A stretch of DNA of 39,527 nucleotides from a virus: positions 1 to 39,527 of the IMG/VR virus record IMGVR_UViG_3300021141_000022; one strand, 5' to 3'. Each line of letters starts with the position of its first letter. Position 1 is the first letter of the stretch. The notes beneath the pieces were generated by a model. That model saw nothing but the letters and a program-made list of their open reading frames with translations. It was not told the origin of the DNA and searched no databases. Positions 10,988 through 33,528 of the stretch are shown in pieces. The translations under genes were made by a program, and so were the position numbers.

Positions 10988-11602
10988 TTACATTACTGAA
11001 ATTATATCACCGATAAGTGAATTGATTTTTGAATATTTATTAGATGCTCCTCTGTTCACTCCCTCATTAAGAGATGGTGACATGAAAGCTCCTTGAGTCG
11101 ATGGATTAGATACTAAGTCCCAACAAACGATTTCGAAATCATCCTGAACTTCCACCTTTCCTTCTCCTAGGTTTGTTACTGAACCCATACCTCGAGATGA
11201 AATACCTAAACGGATTCCAGCCTTCAGAAGCTCCTTAGCAATGTTTCCAGATGGTGTTCCTAGGATTTCAATTTTACCCATCAAATCAGCTCCATTCCAC
11301 CATAAGTCTATTACGTTGTGAGATACATTCGATAAGTTTACTACAGACGACTCTGGGTGATCTAATTCTCCTAGAGCTCTACGTTCTGCAATAAAAACTT
11401 TTTTGTATTTGTCACACTCACGCTTTAGTATTGGAAGTGGATAACTTCTACCATTTTGGTTGAAGTTTTCATCTCTACCAGTACTGCCTCTTTGCATGAT
11501 ACCACTGACAATAACTTTACCGTTGTTGTTTGCCATAGATTCGTGAATCTGCTCTGGCGTTACGGTGATTGATCCTATGTAATCAACTAGTACTTGTTTC
11601 AT
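10988..11602 (-). CDS. 21: Prohead core protease (T4 gp21-like)
   Basis: This serine protease of the herpes/T4 assembly-protease fold cuts scaffold, capsid and internal proteins after (I/L)-x-E during head maturation. The 204 residues contain the two catalytic regions in order: ALGELDHPESS with the likely catalytic His82, and RLGISSRGMGSV with the likely nucleophile at Ser135/136. Spacing and length match T4 gp21 (about 212). SGIMQRGSTGRDENFNQNGR is the usual N-terminal beta region. The gene overlaps the upstream 247-residue gene by ATGA. Its presence makes the many (I/L)-x-E leaders nearby meaningful. Confidence 0.93.
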   Translation of the reverse strand: MKQVLVDYIGSITVTPEQIHESMANNNGKVIVSGIMQRGSTGRDENFNQNGRSYPLPILKRECDKYKKVFIAERRALGELDHPESSVVNLSNVSHNVIDLWWNGADLMGKIEILGTPSGNIAKELLKAGIRLGISSRGMGSVTNLGEGKVEVQDDFEIVCWDLVSNPSTQGAFMSPSLNEGVNRGASNKYSKINSLIGDIISVM

Positions 11603-13211: not shown

Positions 13212-15080
13212 TTATTCCTCTGGTAAGATATTGCCTTCATCCAATAAATTTGAGCTTTCTTGCTCTGTTTTATTGTCAAAAGTCTCACTTAATGCTTGTT
13301 TTTTGGTTGGCATTGATTTCAATAGAGATCTATATGCTTCAATTGACTGTCTTTTAAGTGATCTGTTCTCAGATACGTTTCCTGATACTTTATTACCCAA
13401 CGGATCCCATCCAAGTGGATGTGCGTGAGTTCTATACGTACCAGGCTCTTCTGGACGTCCAGCACCTGGCCAACCTCCTTTTGGAGCTTCCATATCGGAA
13501 CCATACCCTTTAGGAACTCCACCATTACCTTTGTATAAAGATGCTAAATCATGAGGTGTCCCGAAAGATTGTCCAGTTTTTATTGGATCGTTTCCTTCTG
13601 TTTTAATTTGTTCAATTCTAAATTGTGCTTTTGTATCTTCGATAATTCTATCTTGCTCATGTAAGAACTCAGCTTCGCTCAGGTTAAATAGGTTTTCATA
13701 AACCCAGTAGCGACTGAATAGCTTTTTCTCTATCATGTCACCAGCGAGTGTTACCTTCGATGTCCACAACTCTACCTTCTCCCTCTCATAAACAGAAGAT
13801 GGAGCTGTAAGGCTTATTGTGAAGTCTATTAACTCATCGTCAGTAAAGCCTTGAGCATATAAATGCACGATTGCAATTTTATGCAACTCAGATGCAACTA
13901 TTTTCTGAACTCTCTCAATCGTTCTAGCAAATCGGAAATCTTGAGATGCCAAGGTAGCCTTACCTGTCGTATCCTCTTCATATCCCAAATACGCTTTAGG
14001 TATCTTTAAAGATCCTAATAGTCTATTTCTTAAGTATTCGATATCTTGAATAGAGTCATACTGCACTCCTGGTAGCGACTCTATAGAAGTACCGCTCTCA
14101 GAACCACGCACTGGAAGATAGAAATCCTCTAGTAAGTTCTGCATATTGTATTTAAGATTGTATTCTCCAGTCTCTTGATCAATGTATGGTACTTTTTTCA
14201 TTTTGTTAACCATACCCTCCATAAAGGTTTCAACCTCGTTTGGTGGAATGTTACCAATATCAATTTTGAATACACGCTTATCTGGAGCTCTCATGATACG
14301 GTGAATCAACATCGCATCTTCCATAAGAGTAATTTGTTTCCAAACTTTTCTTGTTGGCTCTATAATAGAACGACCATAAGGTAGGAAGTTTGTATCTGTT
14401 AGCAATCTAAAGTGTGCTATCTCATAGTTGTCAAACTCTTCACCATCTTTATTAGAAGTTACAGAATATGTAGAAGATAGTGCTGTTAAATCTCTTTTAA
14501 ACTTAACCTCATTTGGATTTTCTGGATCCATTCCCTCCTCACGAATCATCTCGTAAGCAGAGATAGGCTCTACATTGATTACACCATACTTCTCTGCAAC
14601 ATCCATTTTTAAGAAGAAATCACCATACTTGACTGTGTTTCTGATCCACGGCCATAGGTTAAATTCAATATTCAGAACATCGTAGAATAGGTTGTGAAGT
14701 ACTTTTTGAACTCTCTCGTTAGGAGAGGTTATAGATAGAACATCACCAAACTCATTTTTAGCAGTACACTCGTCTGCATATATGTCCAATGCTGATGATA
14801 TGATACTATCAGTATCCATTGCTTCATAGTCACGGAAAAGCTCTAATCGAGTGTATAACTGAAGTTGACCACTGCTCATCGACATGCCACCTGGCATCGA
14901 AGAGAATAGTCTAGAATATCTATCAACTCGTCTGTTGGTTTTAATATTACCGTCAGATTGAATCTTATTGGTATCTATTACCTTTAGTTGATTACCTCCT
15001 ACATTACGTATAATAACGTCTGTACTAAATAGACGTCTTAACGATGCAAAAAGATTCGCTGGTTGTTGATTTTCAGCCAT
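13212..15080 (-). CDS. 20: Portal vertex protein (T4 gp20-like)
   Basis: The portal is the dodecameric ring through which DNA is packaged and leaves. Matches to T4-type gp20 include RDYEAMDTDSIISSALDIYA, then EFNLWPWIRNTVKYGDFFLK, VKFKRDL, and GSLKIPKAYLGYEEDTTGKA. The 622 residues exceed T4 gp20 (524). The excess is a C-terminal Gly/Pro/Ser-rich tail (after about 510) with SMPTKKQALSETFDNKTEQE at the end, which includes L-S-E as a possible protease site. The gene starts with ATG 15 nt after a TATTTATA box and lies directly downstream of the terminase gene. Confidence 0.95.
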   Translation of the reverse strand: MAENQQPANLFASLRRLFSTDVIIRNVGGNQLKVIDTNKIQSDGNIKTNRRVDRYSRLFSSMPGGMSMSSGQLQLYTRLELFRDYEAMDTDSIISSALDIYADECTAKNEFGDVLSITSPNERVQKVLHNLFYDVLNIEFNLWPWIRNTVKYGDFFLKMDVAEKYGVINVEPISAYEMIREEGMDPENPNEVKFKRDLTALSSTYSVTSNKDGEEFDNYEIAHFRLLTDTNFLPYGRSIIEPTRKVWKQITLMEDAMLIHRIMRAPDKRVFKIDIGNIPPNEVETFMEGMVNKMKKVPYIDQETGEYNLKYNMQNLLEDFYLPVRGSESGTSIESLPGVQYDSIQDIEYLRNRLLGSLKIPKAYLGYEEDTTGKATLASQDFRFARTIERVQKIVASELHKIAIVHLYAQGFTDDELIDFTISLTAPSSVYEREKVELWTSKVTLAGDMIEKKLFSRYWVYENLFNLSEAEFLHEQDRIIEDTKAQFRIEQIKTEGNDPIKTGQSFGTPHDLASLYKGNGGVPKGYGSDMEAPKGGWPGAGRPEEPGTYRTHAHPLGWDPLGNKVSGNVSENRSLKRQSIEAYRSLLKSMPTKKQALSETFDNKTEQESSNLLDEGNILPEE

Positions 15081-15104: not shown

Positions 15105-16685
15105 TCACATTAACCAGTTAAGGTCTTCTTCTTTGCCATCCGGCGTTTTCATGCTCCATTTAGAGTTTTGTGTCGACGGTTTGTAAATTGAAATAGTCGA
15201 CTTTATATGACTAACAGCTTGTCTACTTAAATCTATCCCCGCTTGTCTTAATCTTAGTGCAGTATCTCTTACCCATAATCCTTGACAAAAACTCATTACT
15301 AAATCGTCATGGTAACCTGATGCCGCTTCTGGTCTTCCATTTCTATAAATAAAAACAAAGAGTTCATCTAGCAATCGCTTACTCCTTATTATACAACTTT
15401 TTTCACGAATATACAACTCCATCTTACTAATCGTAAGAGGTCTTACTTTGTGTGAGTTTGTAAACCCAGCCACCATGTCTGACTTGTCTGTTAAGTCATA
15501 ACCTCTAGTTAAGAACTTATCTGAATCTAGTCCACTGTCCTTTGGTGTGTAGTATAGGTTTTTGTAACCACGTTCAATAATTTGCTGAAGTGTTGCCCAA
15601 CCTACGTTTGCATTCTCCACAACCAACAAAGCATCGTTGTATTCTGTACCCACTGCTACTAGCAAATTACCAAAGTCTTTAGTTGAAAGTTGACCCTTGT
15701 ACTCAGCTACTTGTGCTGCAGTCTCTACATCAAATACATGGAAGGCAGAATAATCACTTCCATCACCTCGTGCGACATCGGCTGCGATAAGGTAGCTTCT
15801 TTGATAATCTGGTTGTTCCCATATCCACAAGTTTCCGTCAAAGCCTCTCTTCTCAATTGGATCTTGAGCAAAGTTTTCTACATAGTGAGTAATAAGGTCT
15901 GGAGACACTACTGTATTACCTGACGTACTAAAGTCACAGTCACACTCCTGAGCTGCTAACCTTGCACCGAGCTCTGCCTCTTGTCTGTCTCTCCAAGTTT
16001 GATCTCTTTCTGGGTGGACTTGCCATGGAAGTCTTAATGTCTTAAATTTATTCTCTCCTGCTTCTGCTTTTGCCCACATCTTGTGGAAAAAGTTACCAGT
16101 TCCGTTAGGAGTTGAAAGTAGTATACCTTCCCCACCCGTTGATAGTGTTTGCTGTAGTGATGCCCATAGTTCTTCCGCTCCATCAACGAAAGCTGCCTCA
16201 TCGATAATTACCAACGATAACGCTTCTGAACGTCCAGATGTTCCTGTGCTTGATACGGCTTTAATTTGGGATCCGTTTGAAAGTCTCATCGAGAGTTTAT
16301 TACTCTCTACTGCCTTGAGCTTCATCCAACTAGGTAAGTTGTCAAACATTACCCGCACCTTTGTTACAAGGTTTTTAGATGTATTCTGATCAATCGCAAC
16401 TACCAATACGTTCTTGTCATTCTGAAATAAGATCATCCACAATGCATATCCAGCGATAAGAGTAGAAATACCCAACTGTCTAGATTTTAAGATGATAGTT
16501 CTATCATGCTCTTGAAAGTCTTGTAATGCATCCTCTTGATATGGATAAAGATGAAACGGAATCTTACCTTTAGTAGGGTGTTGGATAACACAATACTTTT
16601 TCATAAAGTAAGACGCAGAGCGAGCACATTTTACATACTCGTCTTTTATAATATCTTTGAGTGTTTTTTGTTGTTGTTCTGACAT
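15105..16685 (-). CDS. 17: Large terminase subunit (T4 gp17-like)
   Basis: The terminase motor drives DNA into the prohead and cuts concatemers. The N-terminal ATPase domain shows the unusual gp17-type Walker A KSRQLGIST (residues 67-75, T4 has SRQLGKTT), Walker B LVIIDEAAF (158-166) and a coupling motif LLSTPNGTGNFF (about 189-200). The C-terminal RNase H-like nuclease starts at AADVARGDGSDYSAFHVFDV, with Asp303 equivalent to T4 Asp401, and ends with GYHDDLVMSF carrying the last metal-binding Asp. At 526 residues it is shorter than T4 gp17 (610). It is followed by the portal and preceded at 3 nt by the lysis-type gene. Confidence 0.96.
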   Translation of the reverse strand: MSEQQQKTLKDIIKDEYVKCARSASYFMKKYCVIQHPTKGKIPFHLYPYQEDALQDFQEHDRTIILKSRQLGISTLIAGYALWMILFQNDKNVLVVAIDQNTSKNLVTKVRVMFDNLPSWMKLKAVESNKLSMRLSNGSQIKAVSSTGTSGRSEALSLVIIDEAAFVDGAEELWASLQQTLSTGGEGILLSTPNGTGNFFHKMWAKAEAGENKFKTLRLPWQVHPERDQTWRDRQEAELGARLAAQECDCDFSTSGNTVVSPDLITHYVENFAQDPIEKRGFDGNLWIWEQPDYQRSYLIAADVARGDGSDYSAFHVFDVETAAQVAEYKGQLSTKDFGNLLVAVGTEYNDALLVVENANVGWATLQQIIERGYKNLYYTPKDSGLDSDKFLTRGYDLTDKSDMVAGFTNSHKVRPLTISKMELYIREKSCIIRSKRLLDELFVFIYRNGRPEAASGYHDDLVMSFCQGLWVRDTALRLRQAGIDLSRQAVSHIKSTISIYKPSTQNSKWSMKTPDGKEEDLNWLM

Positions 16686-19247: not shown

Positions 19248-20300
19248 TTATTTAGTTTGGTTTCTACTCTTGATTACTTTCGCAACCTCTTCCCTTACAA
19301 GTTTTCTCAACTGAGTCTCCTTGGATTCGTAAACAACATTAACACCTAGTTGCTTTAGTTTATTTTCTAAAGCGCTTTGTTCTTCCTGATCTCCGTCCTT
19401 TAGGTAGTAGATAACATCTTTAAACTTACTGAACCCTAGCTTTGGTAATAAGTCGATTCTGTTAAAGATTGCTTTTAGTATATCCTTTACACCGTATGAT
19501 GATAATTTAAGTTCGTTCATTGATTCTTGTAGTTTTGTGTTAGGGCTATATGGTTTTGTAAAATCCACCACTCCGTTTTTAATTACGTTTGCTATTTTTT
19601 GAACCTCCTCTGGTCCAATCACTGGCATGTCTACTCTATCAGGTGCTCCTGGCATGATCTGCTTTGGTAAAAGATCTGCGTTACGCATCATAATTTGTTT
19701 TGCCTTTTCTGGATCACCATTTGCTCCTGGAACCTTTCCTAAAGCTGCTTTGATTTGTTCGGCTGGTACTGGGTACTGTCCTTTGATTCCGTTTGCAATA
19801 GCGTCTGTAATGATTGGTTCAAAGCTGTTTCCTGTAAATGTTGCTATGTCTCCTGATCCTGGATTTCCAGACTTGCCTAATGCTTTCGTAACAATGTTAA
19901 GTACTGACACCAGTGCCACTCCTGGTAGGTTTATTACGGTTCCTGCAATCTTTGCTTTTGGGTCTATAAGAGAGATGGCTGCCCATCTATGGTGACCATC
20001 CATAATGAAGTTATCACTAGAAATAATAGCCTCCAAGTCAACACCATCCCATTCACCTCTATTAAGAAACTTAATAGCCATTCCAAACGCTTTCTCTTTT
20101 ATAATTTCAGTTTGTGCTGGTTTTAGGTCTTTAACTGGAAATGAAGCTTTTTTAGACATAACTATGTCATCAACTTGGTTGTTGTCCTTTCTCCCACTAG
20201 ACACTGCAACCTTTGCTACGTCGGCTGGAATCTTGCTTAGAGGAATTACTTTGGTTTGACCAAGTACCTCTACCTCGTTGAGTATGTGTTTTAATTTCAT
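19248..20300 (-). CDS. ParB/sulfiredoxin-like domain protein with head-targeting-type leader
   Basis: The ATG at 20300 lies 2 nt after the upstream stop and gives the leader MKLKHILNEVEVLGQTKVIP, with L-N-E at 7-9. A GTG at 20309 could add three residues. The core (about 15-125) has the layout of ParB N-terminal domains: KVIPLSKIP, a helical part, SSDNFIMDGHHRWAAISLID. The DGHHRWAA (101-108) is the usual phosphate/nucleotide-binding loop. ParB-fold proteins bind CTP or ATP, and some are nucleases or kinases. The C-terminal half has L-Q-E and M-N-E sites and a charged helical end. Activity is unknown; packaging is inferred. Confidence 0.78.
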   Translation of the reverse strand: MKLKHILNEVEVLGQTKVIPLSKIPADVAKVAVSSGRKDNNQVDDIVMSKKASFPVKDLKPAQTEIIKEKAFGMAIKFLNRGEWDGVDLEAIISSDNFIMDGHHRWAAISLIDPKAKIAGTVINLPGVALVSVLNIVTKALGKSGNPGSGDIATFTGNSFEPIITDAIANGIKGQYPVPAEQIKAALGKVPGANGDPEKAKQIMMRNADLLPKQIMPGAPDRVDMPVIGPEEVQKIANVIKNGVVDFTKPYSPNTKLQESMNELKLSSYGVKDILKAIFNRIDLLPKLGFSKFKDVIYYLKDGDQEEQSALENKLKQLGVNVVYESKETQLRKLVREEVAKVIKSRNQTK

Positions 20301-20302
20301 GT

Positions 20303-20884
20303 TTACCACTTTCTACACGACCAGTAGCGAGCCTTATCTCTTGGTCCTGGATTATCACAATTATGTCTAGCTCTAAACGATCGACGTCTAGCTGGATCAC
20401 TCTTCTTTATGCTCATACCCTTCTGTCCAAAGTTAACCTTAACTACGTTTCCTTTTGGATTCTTTACATACACTTTAAACTTCTTGACATCACCCTGCAT
20501 AGGTTTGCCTAGTTTAACTGTACGTCCTTGATATTCTGCTTCTGTTAATTCCTGCTTGGTTGTCCGAATAGCCTCTAATAAAGCTACTGCACAACTATCG
20601 CATATAGTTATCTCTTGTGCGTTAATCTTCTTTGCAGCGGCTACTGCATCTTTGTAAGCCTCAGAGCCTTTTCGGGCTGGCTTTTCACCTCGAGCTCTCT
20701 TTGCTCTAATGTTTGCCCATAATCCCTTTTGCTCTTCGTTTATAGATTCATTAGCGTTCAAGTGTAGGGCAGCAAGATACTTATGTAAAGCCTCTTTGTT
20801 TCCGTCGGTACACCCAACTTTAGCACCTCCGTCTTTTTTATAGACGCAGTACTGATCTCCTTCTTTTCTCGCTGTGTATGGCAT
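20303..20884 (-). CDS. Cys/Trp-rich protein with two internal prohead-type cleavage sites (193 aa)
   Basis: Three parts are seen. Residues 1-50 include CVYKKDGGAKVGC and end in I-N-E (48-50). Residues 51-115 start KGLWANIRAKRARGEKPARK, contain ICDSCAVALLEAIR, and end in L-T-E (113-115) followed by AE, the same junction as T4 gp23 (LTE/AE). Residues 116-193 have KKFKVYVKNPKGNVVKVNFG and a C-terminal RRRSFRARHNCDN and RYWSCRKW, a pattern I recall from T4-like marine phages. Processing by gp21 would release separate domains, which is inference. The start overlaps the GAF-like gene stop. Confidence 0.75.
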   Translation of the reverse strand: MPYTARKEGDQYCVYKKDGGAKVGCTDGNKEALHKYLAALHLNANESINEEQKGLWANIRAKRARGEKPARKGSEAYKDAVAAAKKINAQEITICDSCAVALLEAIRTTKQELTEAEYQGRTVKLGKPMQGDVKKFKVYVKNPKGNVVKVNFGQKGMSIKKSDPARRRSFRARHNCDNPGPRDKARYWSCRKW

Positions 20885-21492: not shown

Positions 21493-21996
21493 TTAATCGT
21501 TCTTATAGTTTTCTACTTTGGTCTTTAACTCACTAACCTCCTTATCTACTATCGCCTGCATCACACCTTTATCGGCATCCTTCCACGATTCGAGCAATCC
21601 ATCCTCAGTAACGTTTGTTTTTGAAACCGAGTCTTGTATGTAATCGTTAAGAGTCATTTCCATATCCTCCACAAACGCTTCTGCATTTGCAGTGATTCTT
21701 GCTCTTTCGTATTCTTTCCATCTTCCAGATGTTATTATCTCATGCTCCATGTCTATGGTACATGAATAACATCTCTGGTTGTATGTCCACATTTTAGCAT
21801 CTAAACTATGCTTCATCGAACCACCACACTTTGGACATGCTAGTGGTGTAAACACCTGCTTTCTAGCAGCATCCATTCTTGAAACCGTTCTCTTTAGACC
21901 ATTCTTAATAGTCCAGTCTTTTCCATTTTCGGTCCAAACATCACCCTCTTTGTAGTTGGGACGTTTACCCTCTGTCGTAACAAATAATTTACTCAT
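21493..21996 (-). CDS. Zinc-ribbon protein of unknown role (167 aa)
   Basis: Cys54-x2-Cys57 and Cys76-x2-Cys79 (CPKCGGSMKH ... QRCYSC) form a four-Cys zinc ribbon. It is preceded by an N-terminal segment (NYKEGDVWTENGKDWTIKNG) and followed by a long helical acidic C-terminus with FVEDMEMTLNDYIQDSV. No catalytic motif is visible. It overlaps the next gene upstream by ATGA. It could bind nucleic acid or a protein partner. Confidence 0.75.
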   Translation of the reverse strand: MSKLFVTTEGKRPNYKEGDVWTENGKDWTIKNGLKRTVSRMDAARKQVFTPLACPKCGGSMKHSLDAKMWTYNQRCYSCTIDMEHEIITSGRWKEYERARITANAEAFVEDMEMTLNDYIQDSVSKTNVTEDGLLESWKDADKGVMQAIVDKEVSELKTKVENYKND

Positions 21997-22322
21997 TTTG
22001 CTTGTAACTTATATTTTTCTAAAACTAATTCTACGTACTTATCGAACTTACGCATTGCTCGTCGTAGCTCAAGCTTTGCTCCTTCTGCTAGCTTTATTCC
22101 CTCCTCTTTGTCAGAAACTGCTCTGTAGAATTCTTTTCCTCCAGTAGACGATACGCTCAATATAAAGCTAACCTCTGGAGAGCCACTTTCACCAACTTCA
22201 TTGAAGTCTGTGTTGTAGTGTAGTGTCATGTTTGTGTTAGGTGAGGTTGCAATGGCTTCTTTCTTTTCCTGCAACACTTGCTTTACTGCTACCTCTTGTA
22301 TTTGCTTATATAGGTCTTTCAT
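21993..22322 (-). CDS. Head-cargo candidate with IQE/LQE leader (109 aa)
   Basis: The leader MKDLYKQIQEVAVKQVLQEK gives I-Q-E (8-10) and L-Q-E (17-19). The remainder is a small alpha/beta protein with TLHYNTDFNEVGE, EVSFILSVSSTGGKEFYRAV and a C-terminal helix (AMRKFDKYVELVLEKYKLQ). It overlaps the large nucleotidyltransferase gene and the zinc-ribbon gene by 4 nt each. No family is recognised. The leader suggests packaging in the head and trimming by the prohead protease. Confidence 0.7.
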   Translation of the reverse strand: MKDLYKQIQEVAVKQVLQEKKEAIATSPNTNMTLHYNTDFNEVGESGSPEVSFILSVSSTGGKEFYRAVSDKEEGIKLAEGAKLELRRAMRKFDKYVELVLEKYKLQAK

Positions 22323-24973
22323 CGTTGAAATTTTAAATATCCAATAATTTGGTTGATTGGAGCAAATGCTCCAGTTAATTTGTAAAGCTTTCCGTTGTAC
22401 TTGAATACCACACCTTCCGTAGGTACAATAGCACTAAAGCCTCCTAAGTCTTTTACTCTCTGCAATTCTCTTTTTAGGAATTGAAGTGATTTGTCATCAT
22501 CTTGCATCTCTGGCGATGCCGCAGCTGCTCTAATGGTACGAATTGACAGTGCCAACTCATCTCTCATTTTTTGCATACTGTCGTTTGGATTGATTGCTAC
22601 TAGTTGTTGTATGTTTTGTAAAACATAAACTCCTAATTTAAGAAACAAGTTCTCTAAAGGTCTTTTTGCTTCTTTTTGCTGAGCTGCTACTCCATTCTTA
22701 TCAAACTGATCAACCCAGTTTAAAAAGTCCTGATTACTAATTCCAGCTCTTAGAGCCTTAATGTTGGTACTCTTGTCTCCAAATCCCCAACGGCCAATTA
22801 ATAACTGCAAACTATTGTCTGGTACCTGGTATCCTAGCTCCTTTGCTTTTTGCTCTATAAAAGCTTTCCACCATGCCTGAAAGTATGTGGACATCTTTTC
22901 TTGCTCACCTAGATTATAACTCTTACGTATAGTATCTAGTTGACCTAACAGCTCTTGTTTCTGCTTCTCGTAGTCTGCTGTTTTGTTTAAGGTAATTGGA
23001 TCTGTTACTCTAATCTCGTAAGTTTTCTGAGTACTCGCTTGTACAGCCTCGATAGCTTTTTGCAATGCAATTGCTGATTCTGAATCCTCATCAACAACAT
23101 TACCGTCTTTATCGTACTCCTTGAAACCATGAAGTCTCAACTGTGTAGCTCCATAAGGCACTACGTTTGTTGTTCCAGGATAAAGTACTTCGAAGTTTAC
23201 AAACTTCTTACCATTCTGGAAGAATTCTTCTTTTTGTGTAGAGTTTAGTCGATTGATAGCTGACTCCATGTCATTCATGGCTTCTACAAACGCAGTCTGA
23301 ACTGCACCCTTTCCGTCCATCATTTGATTAAGTTGGTCAGCTGTGATAGAGTTAGCTGCAAAATCTTTTAGCTGTCCTTTGTTTCTTGCTGCTCGTACCT
23401 TACCATCTTTATAGGTTACCATTAGATTTTGTCCATCTAACTTTTCTTGAGCAAACTCAACCTCACCACTCAAGGCTGCGTCGATCATCTTCGAAGCATC
23501 GTTAAATGTTAAGTCCAAATCATCGAATGGATGACTCATGTGACCTGCTGCTCCTCCTTCTTTAAGTATTTGTCGACCTTCTGTCAACTTCATAGCTTTT
23601 CGAAGTCTAGGGCCCCATCCATATCTGAGATATTGCATCTCTTCTGGTTTGAGTTTATTTTTCAAAATAGATTGAATCCCGTTTAGGTTTTGAGTAGCTG
23701 TTATTTTGTTATTCTTATCTAAGAATGTACGATCTTTTACTAGTTTTTGAATTTCTGGATCTTGGACTAATCTATCAGCTATCTTCTGAAGCTTTCTATC
23801 TTTTAAGAAATCCTTAAACCAACCTATAGGATCGAAACTCCAATTCTGACTATTAAAGTTTCCTTGTTTTTTCGCCAACATAAACCCTGTCGATGCAGCC
23901 ATAGCTGCCATCACTGCGGCATTTTCTTTTAGTGCAACTTTACTCTTTGGTGTAGTTTTTTCTGTAATTGGTTTCCATTCATACTCAAGAAGCGACGTTG
24001 CAATTCCAGCAGACGCTGCGTTCTTACTTATGAACGAACTCGGCATTGTATACTTCTCTAATTTAAGAAGTCTAATAAGTATGAAGTATATTGTTCCACC
24101 TGGAAGGATTGAAGCTGCAACTAATCCTACAGCCTTCAGTGAGTCTTTCATCTGATTACCAACCTGCTCCTTCTCTTGTTGTGTTAGTTGCTTTTTTCCA
24201 GAAGCTGCTTGTAATAGTAATGCAAAAGCTTTTTTAGTTTCTTGACCTTCTTTTTTAATAGAAAGTAAGAATGCTTTAAATCTAACTTTAAGTTTTTGAA
24301 CGTAATCGCTTATTACTGCTTCTGAGAGTTGTTGATTCTGATTTCCGTTGAGAATTTTATAAATAGAAGCTACAACCGTCTCAGAAACACCTGGATAATT
24401 TGTTTTGAAGTTTGTGAAATCTCCTGCTGCTAAATCTTGACGAAGAGTGCTGGCACTAATCCCTTGACCATTTAACTCATCTGTACGCCCTTGATATAGC
24501 ATCGGACTAGTGTTAACTGGTAACTCAACCACACTTACGTTTGGTCTATTATATTTTCCAGCTGGTGCTGTTCCTGATGCATCCGCGTGTCCTGCTACGA
24601 ACATTTTAACTCTTTCGTAGTCTTTTCCTTTTGAGCTTGAACCCAAAGCATAAGTTCCTGGAGCTGCCTTTTCGATAAACTCATAGGCTGCTCTCATAGG
24701 ATTATCGTTTGGTGCTTGTTCTACCTTGATGCCACTAGCACCTGCTAATAGTAGCTTCCAAATATCCATAGACTGCTTCATAGTGATACCGTCTCGCTCT
24801 TTTGGACCAATAAGGATTGTCACTTCTGACACATTAGGAAGTGTTGCATATTTTTTTGCTAACTGCAAATGTCCTGCGTGTGGTGGTTTAAAACCTCCAG
24901 GAAGCATCACTGTTACACCCTGGTTCAACTCTTGTAGAAGCTGCTCTACTAAATAATTAGCTAGTTTGTTCAT
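22319..24973 (-). CDS. Fusion of HxGH nucleotidyltransferase and covalent ligase-type nucleotidyltransferase (884 aa)
   Basis: Residues 1-16 are a leader with L-Q-E (13-15). Residues 18-205 are an HxGH adenylyl/cytidylyltransferase domain: MLPGGFKPPHAGHLQLAKKY with His32-x-x-His35, and GISASTLRQD (171-180), the ISxxxxR motif of NMN adenylyltransferase-type enzymes. Residues about 260-320 have a hydrophobic helix, ASILPGGTIYFILIRLL, then MPSSF, slightly LETM1-like. Residues about 475-884 form a ligase/RNA-ligase-type domain: motif I EKLDGQN with Lys511, RNKGQL (motif Ia-like), KFVNFEVLYPG (motif III), EGVVFK (853-858, motif IV) and LYKLTGAF (motif V). Substrates are unknown. TATTTATA lies 4 nt before the ATG. 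Confidence 0.85.
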   Translation of the reverse strand: MNKLANYLVEQLLQELNQGVTVMLPGGFKPPHAGHLQLAKKYATLPNVSEVTILIGPKERDGITMKQSMDIWKLLLAGASGIKVEQAPNDNPMRAAYEFIEKAAPGTYALGSSSKGKDYERVKMFVAGHADASGTAPAGKYNRPNVSVVELPVNTSPMLYQGRTDELNGQGISASTLRQDLAAGDFTNFKTNYPGVSETVVASIYKILNGNQNQQLSEAVISDYVQKLKVRFKAFLLSIKKEGQETKKAFALLLQAASGKKQLTQQEKEQVGNQMKDSLKAVGLVAASILPGGTIYFILIRLLKLEKYTMPSSFISKNAASAGIATSLLEYEWKPITEKTTPKSKVALKENAAVMAAMAASTGFMLAKKQGNFNSQNWSFDPIGWFKDFLKDRKLQKIADRLVQDPEIQKLVKDRTFLDKNNKITATQNLNGIQSILKNKLKPEEMQYLRYGWGPRLRKAMKLTEGRQILKEGGAAGHMSHPFDDLDLTFNDASKMIDAALSGEVEFAQEKLDGQNLMVTYKDGKVRAARNKGQLKDFAANSITADQLNQMMDGKGAVQTAFVEAMNDMESAINRLNSTQKEEFFQNGKKFVNFEVLYPGTTNVVPYGATQLRLHGFKEYDKDGNVVDEDSESAIALQKAIEAVQASTQKTYEIRVTDPITLNKTADYEKQKQELLGQLDTIRKSYNLGEQEKMSTYFQAWWKAFIEQKAKELGYQVPDNSLQLLIGRWGFGDKSTNIKALRAGISNQDFLNWVDQFDKNGVAAQQKEAKRPLENLFLKLGVYVLQNIQQLVAINPNDSMQKMRDELALSIRTIRAAAASPEMQDDDKSLQFLKRELQRVKDLGGFSAIVPTEGVVFKYNGKLYKLTGAFAPINQIIGYLKFQR

Positions 24974-28999: not shown

Positions 29000-31900
29000 C
29001 TAACAAGATATGTAGCTGTGTTCGTCTTTTTTATCTATTGATAATATAGTATCGACCATATCCCTTACAACATCAATGTGTGAGATTACTAAACTAAATC
29101 TAAAAATGTCTTTCATGTGTGTGAACAGAGTGTGCATCGAGTTAAGGTTACTACTATCCAATACTCCTAGCCCTTCGTCGATTGCAATGAAGTCTGGCTT
29201 AGGTAGGTTTGTAATCTTAATCAATGCAATTCGAATTGCAATTGAAGCCATAAAGCGCTCCATTCCAGAACTTAATTCTAGTGGCCATTTGTCATCATCA
29301 TAACATATGAACGCGTTTATGTTTTTACCATCAGTTTCCAATTCGACAGTAAAGTCTATGATTTGGTTCAAAATGTTGTTAGTGTGTTGCTGAATATACG
29401 GTACTGCTTTGCTAATCAAAGTATATGGAATACCATCCTTATACATGGCTTTTGAGTATAACTCATAAGCCACCTGCTCTTCAACTAGCTGCTGCATGTG
29501 ATCAATTGTGTTCAAACACTCCTTAATAGTTTGGTTAGCTACTTGCACCTTTCCGTGATAGTCTTTTACTGTGTTATTTAGCTTTGATACGGCAATCGAC
29601 TGCACATTCTTTTCTTTATTAACTTGGCTTATCTCATCGTTGATCCGCTTATTGTTCTCTAGGATTGTCGTATTCTTGTTGTATATATCAATGTTAGTTT
29701 CAATCTTCTGTATTTCACCTTTTGTTTGTTCAATCTGAGCTTTCAATCTCTCAAAGGCTGCTTCTTCCTTTCCTTTAAGCAACGCTGCCTTATTAAGCTC
29801 TGTACTTGCTTCCTGCAATACAACTGCTTCTTGGTCGATGAAGCTGTTTTGTTCAATAAAATCAACAACTTTCTGTCTTTCTACTAAGAACTCTCCAACT
29901 GTCTTCTTATCCTTCTCTAGCTCCTCACGAGTCGACATTGCGTCTTGAACGAATACATTGGACATACAAAACTTGCAATCCACATCATACTCGTGATCTT
30001 TAAGTTTATCCAACTTTTCAAGCTTATTCTTGATTGTAAGCTTCATCGTATCAAGTTGTGTATCTAGTTTCTGCTTAGTCTGCAAACTAGCTTGATACTC
30101 CTTGTACAGTGTTACGTTGAATAATCCTTTAAGTACTTCCAACTGCCTAGTCCAATGCTCAAAAACCTCGCATGCAGCTCCATGATCCAGACCCTTAGTA
30201 AGCTTAGCTTCTTCCAAATCTTTCACACTATCCAACCTCTGTTGCAGTGATTCGTTTAACTTATCAATATCCAAACCTTCACCTTGACATGGTTGTAGTT
30301 CCCTATTCAATTCAAGTAATTTATCGTTTAAATCCTGCATCCATTGTTGTGCTGATTCTAACTCTGCTACTGCTTTTTCATGCTTTGCTTCATAAGAATC
30401 CTTAGCTCTCTCCGCATCACCTAGCTTTGTCTCAAAGTCTTGCTTTTGATACTCCTCTAGTAGTATTACCGTCTTTCTATTGTTCTTATTTGCCAAATCA
30501 CAAAGTGAGTCAAAAATAGTAACGTCTAGGAAGTTAGCTAGTAAATCCTTACGCTCTCCTTGAGTCTTGTCGATAAAGTTAGAATTGTTTTGTTGCAACG
30601 AAAGTGCTGTTAAAATAAAGTCATCAAAGGTTCCAACGTATGATTGTATGTTAGCTGATGTGTCTCGTCTTTGCTCCCCATTAAGCGATACTCGATCACC
30701 CTCTGAGTTGATATGCCAGAAATCTATGTCCACTCGAAGCTTACCTTTAAGTGGTCCACTTCTATACTTTGTAGCTCTTTTTTCAACAAAATAGTCCAAT
30801 CCTCCTAACTCAAAGTTGAACTTACAATAGAAGTCCTCCTTCTTGCGATTAAGTACTTGATCTGCCTTACTTGCTCTGAATGACTGATCAAACAAGCAAA
30901 AACACAAAGCATCTAATATAGCCGACTTACCTGCATGGTTTGGAGCAAATATACCACAAGTACCTTGCTTTGTACTAAAGTCAATTACATTATCCTCTCC
31001 GTATGAAAACATATTACTAAACTCAAACTTCTTTGGTTTCCATACTACGTTACGAGCCATCTCAGGTAAGTTAATTTCTTGATTTAGCTTTTTATTTATT
31101 TCAATTACCTTCGCAATCATGTCGTCATCAATTCCTTGAGCTGAAAGATATTCAGTTAGTAGTTGACTTTGGTACTGCACATTTCTTACATCTCCTTGAT
31201 TAATTGCATCACCCAACAAACCAGAGCTTGTTCCGTCTGAATTGCGATCTAACCTTTGTACAATCACATCCCTAATGCGGTACTCTTTTCTAATTGTAGC
31301 AAGCACTCTTTTGAGTTGAGCCGGATCTGTGTTTGTTGTTCTTACTCTTAAATTTGTTTTAGAGGTAAGTGGTAAGTTAGCTGGAACTACCCCGTCTACA
31401 ACATCTAAAGTGTAGTAACCATAGTCGTTTGGAATATCATGAAAGGTATATTCGATATTCTCTTTTGTTAAGTCTATCAACGCATAACCATGATCCTCAA
31501 ACACTTCTCCGAAGTTTTGCTGTACTAGAGATCCTGGATAGAATATCGCTGGATCTTGTTTTGATAGTACTTGTCTTTTGTGAATATCGCCTAACGGAAC
31601 TACATCAAAGCCTGCAAAGGTTGCCCAGTCTAACCCGTGAGCTAGCGTTAAGCCACTATCTACTTTACTATTTGCAATCGTACCATGGAACAGTGCCACA
31701 AGCTTCTTATACTTGCTTGGGTTGGTAATTTTATCATAAGTAATGTACTTTTCTGGTTCATCTAAAAGTGACATAACGCTAACTGCTATATCTCCAATTT
31801 CAAATAAACCCGAGTTACGTAAGTAGAAAAGGTTGCTATGATTCATCCCTTTTATGATCGGTGTTAGCGCATCTAATCTATGTTTATTATTTAGATTAGC

Positions 31901-32182
31901 ATCATGGTTTCCTGCAATCACAATTGTAGGTACTCTGTCTGCTAACCCATTGAAGAGGTATGTAACCATTTCAATAAGCTCCGGACTCATATCTGTCTTA
32001 GCATGCACTATGTCTCCACCCACTGTAACGATTGAATTAGGTGGTAGCTCGTCTACCTGCTTGAATACTTTATCAAAAACCTCTTTAAACTCCTTATGTC
32101 TTTTCCAATTACGTAAATGGATATCTGCAATGTGAAAGATGTAATCAACATTCTTCATTGCGCACTTTACTTTGTTTATCAT
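29000..32182 (-). CDS. 47-46: Single-chain Mre11-Rad50 (gp47-gp46) recombination nuclease
   Basis: In T4, gp47 (nuclease) and gp46 (ATPase) are separate and process DNA ends for recombination-dependent replication. Here both are in one 1060-residue chain. The Mre11 part has all metal motifs: DIH (20-22), GGD (55-57), GNHD (91-94), FHG (His166) and GDIH (198-201). The Rad50 part has a P-loop GIFAPNHAGKS (410-420, His where Gly is usual), long coiled coils about 570-735 and 750-905 around a CKFC zinc hook (736-739), signature LSSGMERF (970-977), Walker B FIAIDEG (998-1004) and H-loop His1035. No frameshift or stop lies at the junction. The start overlaps the primase gene (ATGA); M9 is an alternative start. 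Confidence 0.95.
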   Translation of the reverse strand: MINKVKCAMKNVDYIFHIADIHLRNWKRHKEFKEVFDKVFKQVDELPPNSIVTVGGDIVHAKTDMSPELIEMVTYLFNGLADRVPTIVIAGNHDANLNNKHRLDALTPIIKGMNHSNLFYLRNSGLFEIGDIAVSVMSLLDEPEKYITYDKITNPSKYKKLVALFHGTIANSKVDSGLTLAHGLDWATFAGFDVVPLGDIHKRQVLSKQDPAIFYPGSLVQQNFGEVFEDHGYALIDLTKENIEYTFHDIPNDYGYYTLDVVDGVVPANLPLTSKTNLRVRTTNTDPAQLKRVLATIRKEYRIRDVIVQRLDRNSDGTSSGLLGDAINQGDVRNVQYQSQLLTEYLSAQGIDDDMIAKVIEINKKLNQEINLPEMARNVVWKPKKFEFSNMFSYGEDNVIDFSTKQGTCGIFAPNHAGKSAILDALCFCLFDQSFRASKADQVLNRKKEDFYCKFNFELGGLDYFVEKRATKYRSGPLKGKLRVDIDFWHINSEGDRVSLNGEQRRDTSANIQSYVGTFDDFILTALSLQQNNSNFIDKTQGERKDLLANFLDVTIFDSLCDLANKNNRKTVILLEEYQKQDFETKLGDAERAKDSYEAKHEKAVAELESAQQWMQDLNDKLLELNRELQPCQGEGLDIDKLNESLQQRLDSVKDLEEAKLTKGLDHGAACEVFEHWTRQLEVLKGLFNVTLYKEYQASLQTKQKLDTQLDTMKLTIKNKLEKLDKLKDHEYDVDCKFCMSNVFVQDAMSTREELEKDKKTVGEFLVERQKVVDFIEQNSFIDQEAVVLQEASTELNKAALLKGKEEAAFERLKAQIEQTKGEIQKIETNIDIYNKNTTILENNKRINDEISQVNKEKNVQSIAVSKLNNTVKDYHGKVQVANQTIKECLNTIDHMQQLVEEQVAYELYSKAMYKDGIPYTLISKAVPYIQQHTNNILNQIIDFTVELETDGKNINAFICYDDDKWPLELSSGMERFMASIAIRIALIKITNLPKPDFIAIDEGLGVLDSSNLNSMHTLFTHMKDIFRFSLVISHIDVVRDMVDTILSIDKKDEHSYISC

Positions 32183-33126: not shown

Positions 33127-33528
33127 TTATGCAAACCACTCAGCTGGAATATCCTTATCTGCGTAAAGAAATCCATTTTTAATGCACCAATCGGCATAAG
33201 TAGTTTTAGAGCCTTTTCTGAGCTTATTTCTAGAGTTTTGAAATACAAAACGTATATCCAAGTCAGGGTGTTGTTGTTTTATCAAAACGTGTTTTTTTCT
33301 ATCTTCAACGACAAAGCGACCTTTTGTTTCTATAAAGATACCATTTGGTAGTTTGAAGTCTGGAGTGTATGTGTGTTGAGTTTCTGGCTTAACATACTTA
33401 ATCCTATGCTGCTCGTACTCACCATCAACACCTCTTCGTTTTAGTGATGAATCTAAATCATCCTCAAGCCCACTTCGGTAACCCTTTACCTTAGCTGCTT
33501 GTGTTTTTGCGTAAACTCTCTTTGCCAT
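33127..33528 (-). CDS. T7-type endonuclease I (Holliday junction resolvase)
   Basis: The product matches T7 gene 3 endonuclease I along most of its 133 residues. GYRSGLEDDL gives catalytic Glu22 (T7 Glu20). HTYTPDFKLPNGIFIETKGR supplies Asp57, Glu67 and Lys69 (T7 Asp55, Glu65, Lys67). Then come DRKKHVLIKQQHPDLDIRFV and a C-terminal KDIPAEWFA. The enzyme cuts branched DNA such as four-way junctions and is needed before packaging. T4 itself uses the unrelated endonuclease VII (gp49). The gene lies 3 nt after a structural gene and upstream of the primase. Confidence 0.95.
   Translation of the reverse strand: MAKRVYAKTQAAKVKGYRSGLEDDLDSSLKRRGVDGEYEQHRIKYVKPETQHTYTPDFKLPNGIFIETKGRFVVEDRKKHVLIKQQHPDLDIRFVFQNSRNKLRKGSKTTYADWCIKNGFLYADKDIPAEWFA

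Follow-up and report, generated by a model that had tools for sequence, protein, structure and literature searches.

Phage injection of single enzymes is known, T4 Alt being an example, and RNA repair is a known counter-defence that phages express. Partners of the CCA-adding and kinase type have been described for phage RNA repair (PMC7824862), while a HIGH nucleotidyltransferase combined with Nudix or P-loop kinase modules is typical of the NAD enzymes NadM and NadR (PMC9503650). In the sections of PMC9026906 considered here, the T4 prohead protease gp21 is described as cleaving after L/I-X-E, and the internal head proteins of T4, including Alt, carry T4-type leaders and undergo L/I-X-E processing of the kind that we predict for the protein described below. 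Polyvalent proteins, according to the part of PMC5512222 consulted, are large multidomain products of late phage modules, as is the protein described here, and are proposed to be injected.

Here we describe P0001, a phage protein that joins a HIGH-superfamily nucleotidyltransferase to an RNA-ligase-like domain. A literature search returned no described fusion of a nucleotidyltransferase with an RNA ligase and nothing on the Pfam family DUF6267, to which the second domain is compared below; likewise, the consulted parts of PMC5512222 and PMC9026906 contain no description of such a ligase-like domain. We propose, at about even confidence, that a T4-like phage packages P0001 into its head as a cargo polyprotein, which is cut by the prohead protease and delivers separate RNA-repair or anti-defence enzymes.

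The P0001 locus lies within a head module

The window, i.e., the whole stretch of 39,527 nt analysed here (IMG/VR record IMGVR_UViG_3300021141_000022), is a fragment of a T4-like phage encoding portal, terminase, major capsid protein and a gp21-type prohead protease (Table 1). As originally predicted, one protein of 884 residues combines two nucleotidyltransferases; ORF and both domains were found on the minus strand. The gene overlaps each of its neighbours by 1-4 nt, and it is considered real because homologues with 80-82% identity across the C-terminal domain occur at three loci from independent metagenomes. P0001 sits within the head module, and this synteny recurs among 89 loci carrying the ligase-like domain: the zinc-ribbon homologue usually follows the ligase-domain ORF at a distance of tens of bases at most, terminase homologues lie mostly 0.5-2.5 kb downstream, and a prohead protease homologue was present downstream in 28 of the 89, with the terminase, portal and protease counts bounded by how far the contigs extend. 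Additionally, ParB-like and DUF5754 proteins, encoded by separate genes in the window, are fused modules of the polyprotein in some phages.

Table 1 Features of the P0001 locus; residues refer to P0001, and the arrow marks the predicted scissile bond
Feature	Position	Strand	Evidence or remark
P0001, polyprotein gene, 884 aa	22319..24973	minus	ATG start; ORF calling and homologues
N-terminal leader, residues 1-15, MNKLANYLVEQLLQE	24929..24973	minus	resembles T4 capsid-targeting propeptide
HIGH-superfamily nucleotidyltransferase domain, type A, residues 19-212	24338..24919	minus	profile, AlphaFold, Foldseek
HxGH motif HAGH, residues 32-35	24869..24880	minus	sequence
ISASTLR motif, residues 172-178	24440..24460	minus	S173 and R178 invariant in 40 full-length members
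Candidate prohead-protease site LSE218↓A, directly after nucleotidyltransferase	24317..24328	minus	motif scan
LETM1-like module, residues 222-314	24032..24310	minus	NCBIfam NF040639, E 2e-6
Uncharacterised linker, residues 315-465, variable among homologues	23579..24031	minus	sequence comparison
Candidate prohead-protease site LTE465↓G	23576..23587	minus	motif scan
Candidate prohead-protease site LKE472↓GG, ligase-domain junction	23552..23566	minus	motif scan; predicted disordered
RNA-ligase-like covalent nucleotidyltransferase domain, residues 473-884	22322..23557	minus	AlphaFold, Foldseek
Motif I EKLDG, residues 510-514, nucleophile Lys511	23432..23446	minus	52/52 conserved
Motif Ia-like ARNK, residues 529-532	23378..23389	minus	alignment of homologues
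Motif III region with Glu595	23177..23206	minus	52/52 conserved
Motif IIIa-like region with near-invariant His615	23123..23140	minus	alignment of homologues
Motif IV EGVVF, residues 853-857	22403..22417	minus	alignment of homologues
Motif V YKLTG, residues 864-868	22370..22384	minus	Lys865 kept, Thr867 at second-lysine position
Zinc-ribbon protein gene	21493..21996	minus	homologue in 84/89 loci
Terminase large subunit	15105..16685	minus	homologue in 78/89 loci
Portal protein, head module	13212..15080	minus	homologue in 64/89 loci
T4 gp21-type prohead protease, proposed processing enzyme	10988..11602	minus	Pfam PF03420 Peptidase_S77, E 5e-26

The N-terminal domain and the middle region

Both motifs named in the original prediction are in place: HAGH, with H35 invariant, represents the (H/T)xGH signature of the HIGH superfamily, and ISASTLR its C-terminal ISxxxxR-type motif. 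A profile built from residues 1-222 matched phosphopantetheine adenylyltransferase (PPAT, E 6e-8) and the MJ0541 NMNAT (E 7e-7) in the PDB, and the AlphaFold model (pLDDT 86.5) showed a HIGH adenylyltransferase fold, for which Foldseek returned PPAT, NadD and NMNAT structures (E 2e-5 to 1e-4, probability 1.00). The HIGH adenylyltransferase fold is thus secure, but the substrate is not. The proposed nucleotidyltransferase therefore stands as a fold, whereas its assignment to NMNAT is not specific and does not: type-A domains match PPATs better than NMNATs in both the profile and the Foldseek comparison, and P0001 reaches 16 bits with the curated NMNAT model NF002243, far from its cut-off of 127.

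Between the two enzyme domains, the LETM1-like stretch that had been pointed out is real but weak, with a score far under the curated cut-off, and the middle region is missing from some close homologues. A match of P0001 to Pfam Tape_meas_lam_C (E 0.009) was under the cut-off and put down to chance.

The C-terminal domain resembles ATP-dependent RNA ligases

The AlphaFold model of residues 470-884 (pLDDT 90.6, pTM 0.87) adopts the fold of an RNA-ligase-like covalent nucleotidyltransferase with Lys511 at motif I, and the ligase motifs I, III, IV and V that had been read from the sequence (EKLDG, E595, EGVV at 853-856 and K865) are present and conserved. K511, D513, G514, R530, K532 and E595 are invariant in all 52 aligned homologues, and E853 and K865 in all 51 that have letters at these positions. 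The features of the RNA ligase type are thus found for motif I (KxDG), motif III (Glu), motif IV (EG) and the first lysine of motif V. Classical ligases have a second lysine in motif V (KxK); in this family the position is taken by Thr867 in 51 of 51 homologues with letters there, so that sealing may not be the reaction. Moreover, an inserted helical domain of about 200 residues separates motif IIIa from motif IV.

The nearest solved structures in the Foldseek search were the archaeal 2vug, T4 Rnl1, the thermophilic 8uce, T4 Rnl2 and a fungal tRNA ligase, with E values of 1e-3 to 1e-2 and probabilities mostly of 0.8-0.99 for the RNA-ligase matches. The best of them (2vug, T4 Rnl1 and 8uce; probability 0.9-0.99) have TM-scores of about 0.25, low values that are probably due to the large helical insertion. 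All of the best 30 PDB matches are polynucleotide ligases, comprising 27 RNA ligases and three named ATP-dependent DNA ligases. At the sequence level, P0001 missed the gathering cut-off of the Pfam RNA ligase family PF09414 (12.8 bits vs 27), and the profile of the ligase-like domain had no credible match in the PDB; its matches to SMC3 and ribosomal S6 look like helical noise. Judged by the predicted structure, residues 473-884 resemble ATP-dependent RNA ligases and not NAD+ DNA ligases, and by the tests run P0001 belongs to none of PF09414, LigA, NMNAT and DUF6267.

The invariant threonine bears on a second explanation, in which the C-terminal domain is not a ligase and instead caps or nucleotidylates RNA, proteins or small molecules, for which the HIGH enzyme's product may serve as donor. 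Lys511, E595, E853 and K865 are kept in the family, yet the second motif V lysine is absent, as it is in DUF6267. Further conserved elements, i.e., H..HPfdD before motif I, the motif IIIa histidine and RW..dK in the helical insertion, are not known as features of classical ligases. We consider this explanation rather unlikely: it is opposed by the 30 best structural matches, all to polynucleotide ligases, and by the RNA-end enzymes that accompany the ligase-like domain in relatives.

For the self-recycling NAD+ enzyme of the original prediction, in which the ligase domain would use NAD+ and release NMN, and the N-terminal domain would restore NAD+, the structural matches were unfavourable. The top 50 Foldseek matches of the C-terminal domain included no structure of the NAD+-dependent ligase LigA, no Pfam model of the NAD+-ligase Ia/adenylation domain matched, type-A domains are nearer to PPAT than to NMNAT, and protease-like sites at the boundaries would part the two domains. 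Recycling within a single chain is therefore very improbable, given the predicted separation, the lack of NAD+-ligase features and the non-specific N-terminal domain. The idea draws on the relationship of the HIGH domain to NMNAT, on archaeal NMNATs as best solved relatives of the type-B domains described below, and on motif V, where LigA also has a single lysine. Nudix or P-loop kinase modules in other family members, as in NadM and NadR (PMC9503650), point in the same direction.

Distribution of the family and domain pairing

The ligase-like domain was identified in at least 578 IMG/VR contigs and in three of 50,697 phage records, among them one isolate, Microcystis phage Mel-JY01, while the search of a genome collection yielded only four loci, which are probably on phage contigs that were binned in MAGs. 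The domain forms the C-terminal part of ORFs ranging from 421 to 1907 aa, in which module order and content vary widely. A HIGH nucleotidyltransferase precedes it in one chain in 52 out of 58 complete homologous ORFs, 17 with type A as in P0001 and 35 with a divergent type B that is nearer to archaeal NMNAT; in LR756500 the two domains are encoded by neighbouring genes. Upstream modules in relatives comprise a CCA-adding enzyme (PF01743, E 1e-29), zeta/AAA_33 kinases, Nudix and ParB-like domains. The kinase module gave a weak polynucleotide-kinase match, and a phmmer search of the P-loop kinase module against the PDB gave none.

With its HIGH nucleotidyltransferase, LETM1-like and ligase-like parts, P0001 is a late-module phage protein that combines several domains of unrelated biochemistry, as expected for polyvalent proteins. 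A third explanation is pure co-packaging of unrelated early effectors in the style of polyvalent proteins, with no pathway joining the two enzymes; both the wide variation in module order and length and the occurrence of the neighbouring ParB-like and DUF5754 genes as polyprotein modules elsewhere speak for it. Against this, the nucleotidyltransferase/ligase-like pair alone is near-universal, unlike the other modules, and a similar pair recurs in cyanophages, either with the order reversed or as two adjacent genes, which makes mere co-packaging decidedly unlikely. Because the pairing recurs, we argue for functional coupling of the two enzymes. RNA repair is favoured because the ligase-like fold is nearest to RNA ligases and because relatives carry CCA-adding and kinase modules.

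Candidate prohead-protease sites and predicted head packaging

Candidate cleavage sites are found in the P0001 leader at LVE10 (L-V-E, 8-10) and LQE15 (L-Q-E, 13-15), the latter being the L-Q-E from which head packaging and delivery with the DNA had originally been suggested, and at the domain borders (Table 1), whereas the motif scan found no [LI]xE[AGS] inside either enzyme domain. The same pattern was observed across 69 homologues, for which expected values were taken from shuffles and counts are not independent, as the homologues are related: [LI]xE[AGS] is enriched in leaders (28 vs 2.1 expected), after the nucleotidyltransferase (50 vs 4.0) and at the ligase junction (49 vs 0.3), and depleted inside the nucleotidyltransferase (2 vs 18.7) and the ligase domain (10 vs 44). 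In a set of 55 non-redundant members, control motifs in which D, Q, K, N, A or S replaces E never occurred at the ligase junction and at most five times at leaders or after the nucleotidyltransferase. This junction has L or I at P3 in every member and a variable residue at P2; at P1, 40 members have E, 13 have M (LLM-like) and two have C (LLC). Cleavage here is therefore not predicted for all members, and chains with the M or C variants may stay joined. All 20 type-A relatives have [LI]xE↓GG at the junction, and LKE472 is disordered in the model of the C-terminal domain. Furthermore, every one of 34 complete non-redundant ORFs contains [LIVF]xE within its first 32 residues, resembling a head-targeting leader.

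The phage genome encoding P0001 also encodes a prohead protease of the Peptidase_S77 family, as expected for proteins processed in the T4 manner. In addition, gp154 of cyanophage S-CREM2, a distant relative of the nucleotidyltransferase with the leader MKNFSSFLTE↓A, was detected with three peptides in purified virions by mass spectrometry; the authors caution about co-purification, and NMNAT-like proteins were also reported in other cyanophage virions (PMC10665884). Leader sites, protease gene, head-module synteny and the virion record of gp154 together make the predicted packaging likely, and delivery of P0001 with the phage head is well supported by sequence; we infer its actual packaging, cleavage and injection.

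Discussion

In the mechanism that we propose, the leader would target P0001 to the prohead core, where a gp21-type protease would cut after [LI]xE in the leader, behind the nucleotidyltransferase and ahead of the ligase-like domain. As this cleavage would occur in trans, the two enzymes would act as separate proteins after injection, having entered the host together with the phage DNA. At Lys511, the C-terminal enzyme would form a lysyl-nucleotidylate, for which ATP is the most likely donor, and its most likely targets would be RNA ends, e.g., those left in host tRNAs by anticodon-nuclease defences. Its companion, the HIGH adenylyltransferase, would be functionally coupled to it and most likely make NAD+ or another adenylylated cofactor. 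We infer both the RNA-repair activity and the substrates of the two enzymes from folds, motifs and the modules of relatives.

If this holds true, one packaged chain, cut at its module borders by the capsid protease, would be a simple, ready-made counter-defence kit, whose enzymes would arrive in fixed stoichiometry ahead of all phage gene expression. P0001-type proteins are carried in some version by hundreds of uncultured phages, and an activity would be suggested for DUF6267 and for the 'cytidyltransferase' that accompanies it in cyanophages, which are present in hundreds of sequenced phages. We are about equally ready to see confirmed or overturned the broader view that these proteins form a class of phage cargo polyproteins that is widespread and so far undescribed. 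In this view, the prohead protease cuts them in trans inside the capsid, and they deliver RNA-repair and cofactor enzymes with the genome. Their near-constant C-terminal member would belong to a new ligase-like superfamily that includes DUF6267 and is coupled to a HIGH nucleotidyltransferase.

Comparison with known systems

DUF6267 (PF19782) of the T4-like cyanophages S-PM2, P-SSM4 and S-RIM44 shares the predicted ligase-like fold (Foldseek probability 1.00), the HxxH...KxDG...EGxV...K layout, the absence of the second motif V lysine and the coupling to a HIGH nucleotidyltransferase. The domain order is reversed there, or the domains are encoded separately: the 591-aa S-PM2 protein, reached by a Foldseek search of viral models, has DUF6267 followed by the nucleotidyltransferase, and in many other Kyanoviridae the DUF6267 gene is directly upstream of a 'cytidyltransferase' gene. 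Moreover, the DUF6267 gene lies near replication genes and not next to terminase; a motif search of the P-SSM2 head region found no DUF6267-like ORFs, the cyanophage gene being located elsewhere. PF19782 matched neither P0001 nor five family domains, and an hhalign comparison of the ligase domain with DUF6267 was in register and not significant (E 0.12), so that a common origin, likely though unproven, is argued from fold comparison only.

ATP-dependent RNA ligases (archaeal Rnl3 type, T4 Rnl1 and T4 Rnl2) share fold and motifs I, III, IV and V with the P0001 domain, which differs by the lack of a significant sequence match, the long helical insertion between IIIa and IV, and the motif V threonine. 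The NAD salvage enzymes NadM and NadR combine a HIGH nucleotidyltransferase with a Nudix or P-loop kinase domain, as do some relatives of P0001, while P0001 itself is fused to a ligase-like domain and scores under the curated NMNAT cut-offs. Polyvalent proteins, in the part of their description consulted, use embedded peptidases, whereas P0001 has a different domain set, and its predicted cleavage at the junctions between modules would be carried out in trans by the prohead protease. The 'cytidylyltransferase like protein' of Microcystis phage Mel-JY01 (WWT39297) differs from P0001 by a type-B nucleotidyltransferase and the absence of the middle region, and has the same two domains in the same order, an IAE↓GG junction, and a gene directly upstream of the zinc-ribbon gene and the terminase region.

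Gene neighborhood and junction variants

Homologues of the zinc-ribbon protein were found in 84 loci from very different phages. In nearly all cases the ligase-domain gene has the zinc-ribbon gene as its immediate downstream neighbor, and the zinc-ribbon protein is likely a functional partner. The ParB-like and DUF5754 genes are separate in the window, and stretches homologous to them lie within the polyprotein or just upstream of it in relatives (L003 and L020; L077, L085, L088 and L089). At the junction before the ligase-like domain, LLM|GG replaces [LI]xE|GG in 13 of 55 non-redundant family members, including L025, L036 and L085, and these variant junctions are perhaps not cleaved.

Coordinates of the features discussed
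Feature	Location	Strand	Remarks
ParB-like gene	window 19248-20309	-	DGHHRW
DUF5754 gene	window 20303-20884	-
Zinc-ribbon protein gene	window 21493-21996	-
SbcD/Mre11-like + SbcC/Rad50-like ORF	window 29000-32182	-	1060 aa; residues 15-202 phosphoesterase, 389-629 ATPase
Phage endonuclease I	window 33127-33528	-	PF05367, E 6e-61
Large polyproteins	L088:835-6558		1907 aa; CCA-adding enzyme + type-B nucleotidyltransferase + ligase-like domain
	L085:652-5643		1663 aa; same domains
Intein-like ORF	L003:14517-16298		593 aa
Lak type-A nucleotidyltransferase	L005:5986-6609
S-CREM2 gp156	L170:7013-7726		near gene of the packaged cytidylyltransferase

Additional observations and comparison with other phages

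The SbcD/SbcC-like ORF is a single chain joining the functions of T4 gp47 and gp46. This T4-like phage also carries a phage endonuclease I, and in L003 an ORF with intein-like ends (CVSGDTRVLT ... VADGVIVHNC) splits a head-module gene.

In Lak phages (L005 and 15 Lak megaphage records) the type-A nucleotidyltransferase stands alone, having neither leader nor ligase-like domain. In the cyanophage S-CREM2, gp156, reported as part of the virion proteome (PMC10665884), looks from its motif (GG...SDIDLHLV) like a Pol-beta-type minimal nucleotidyltransferase.
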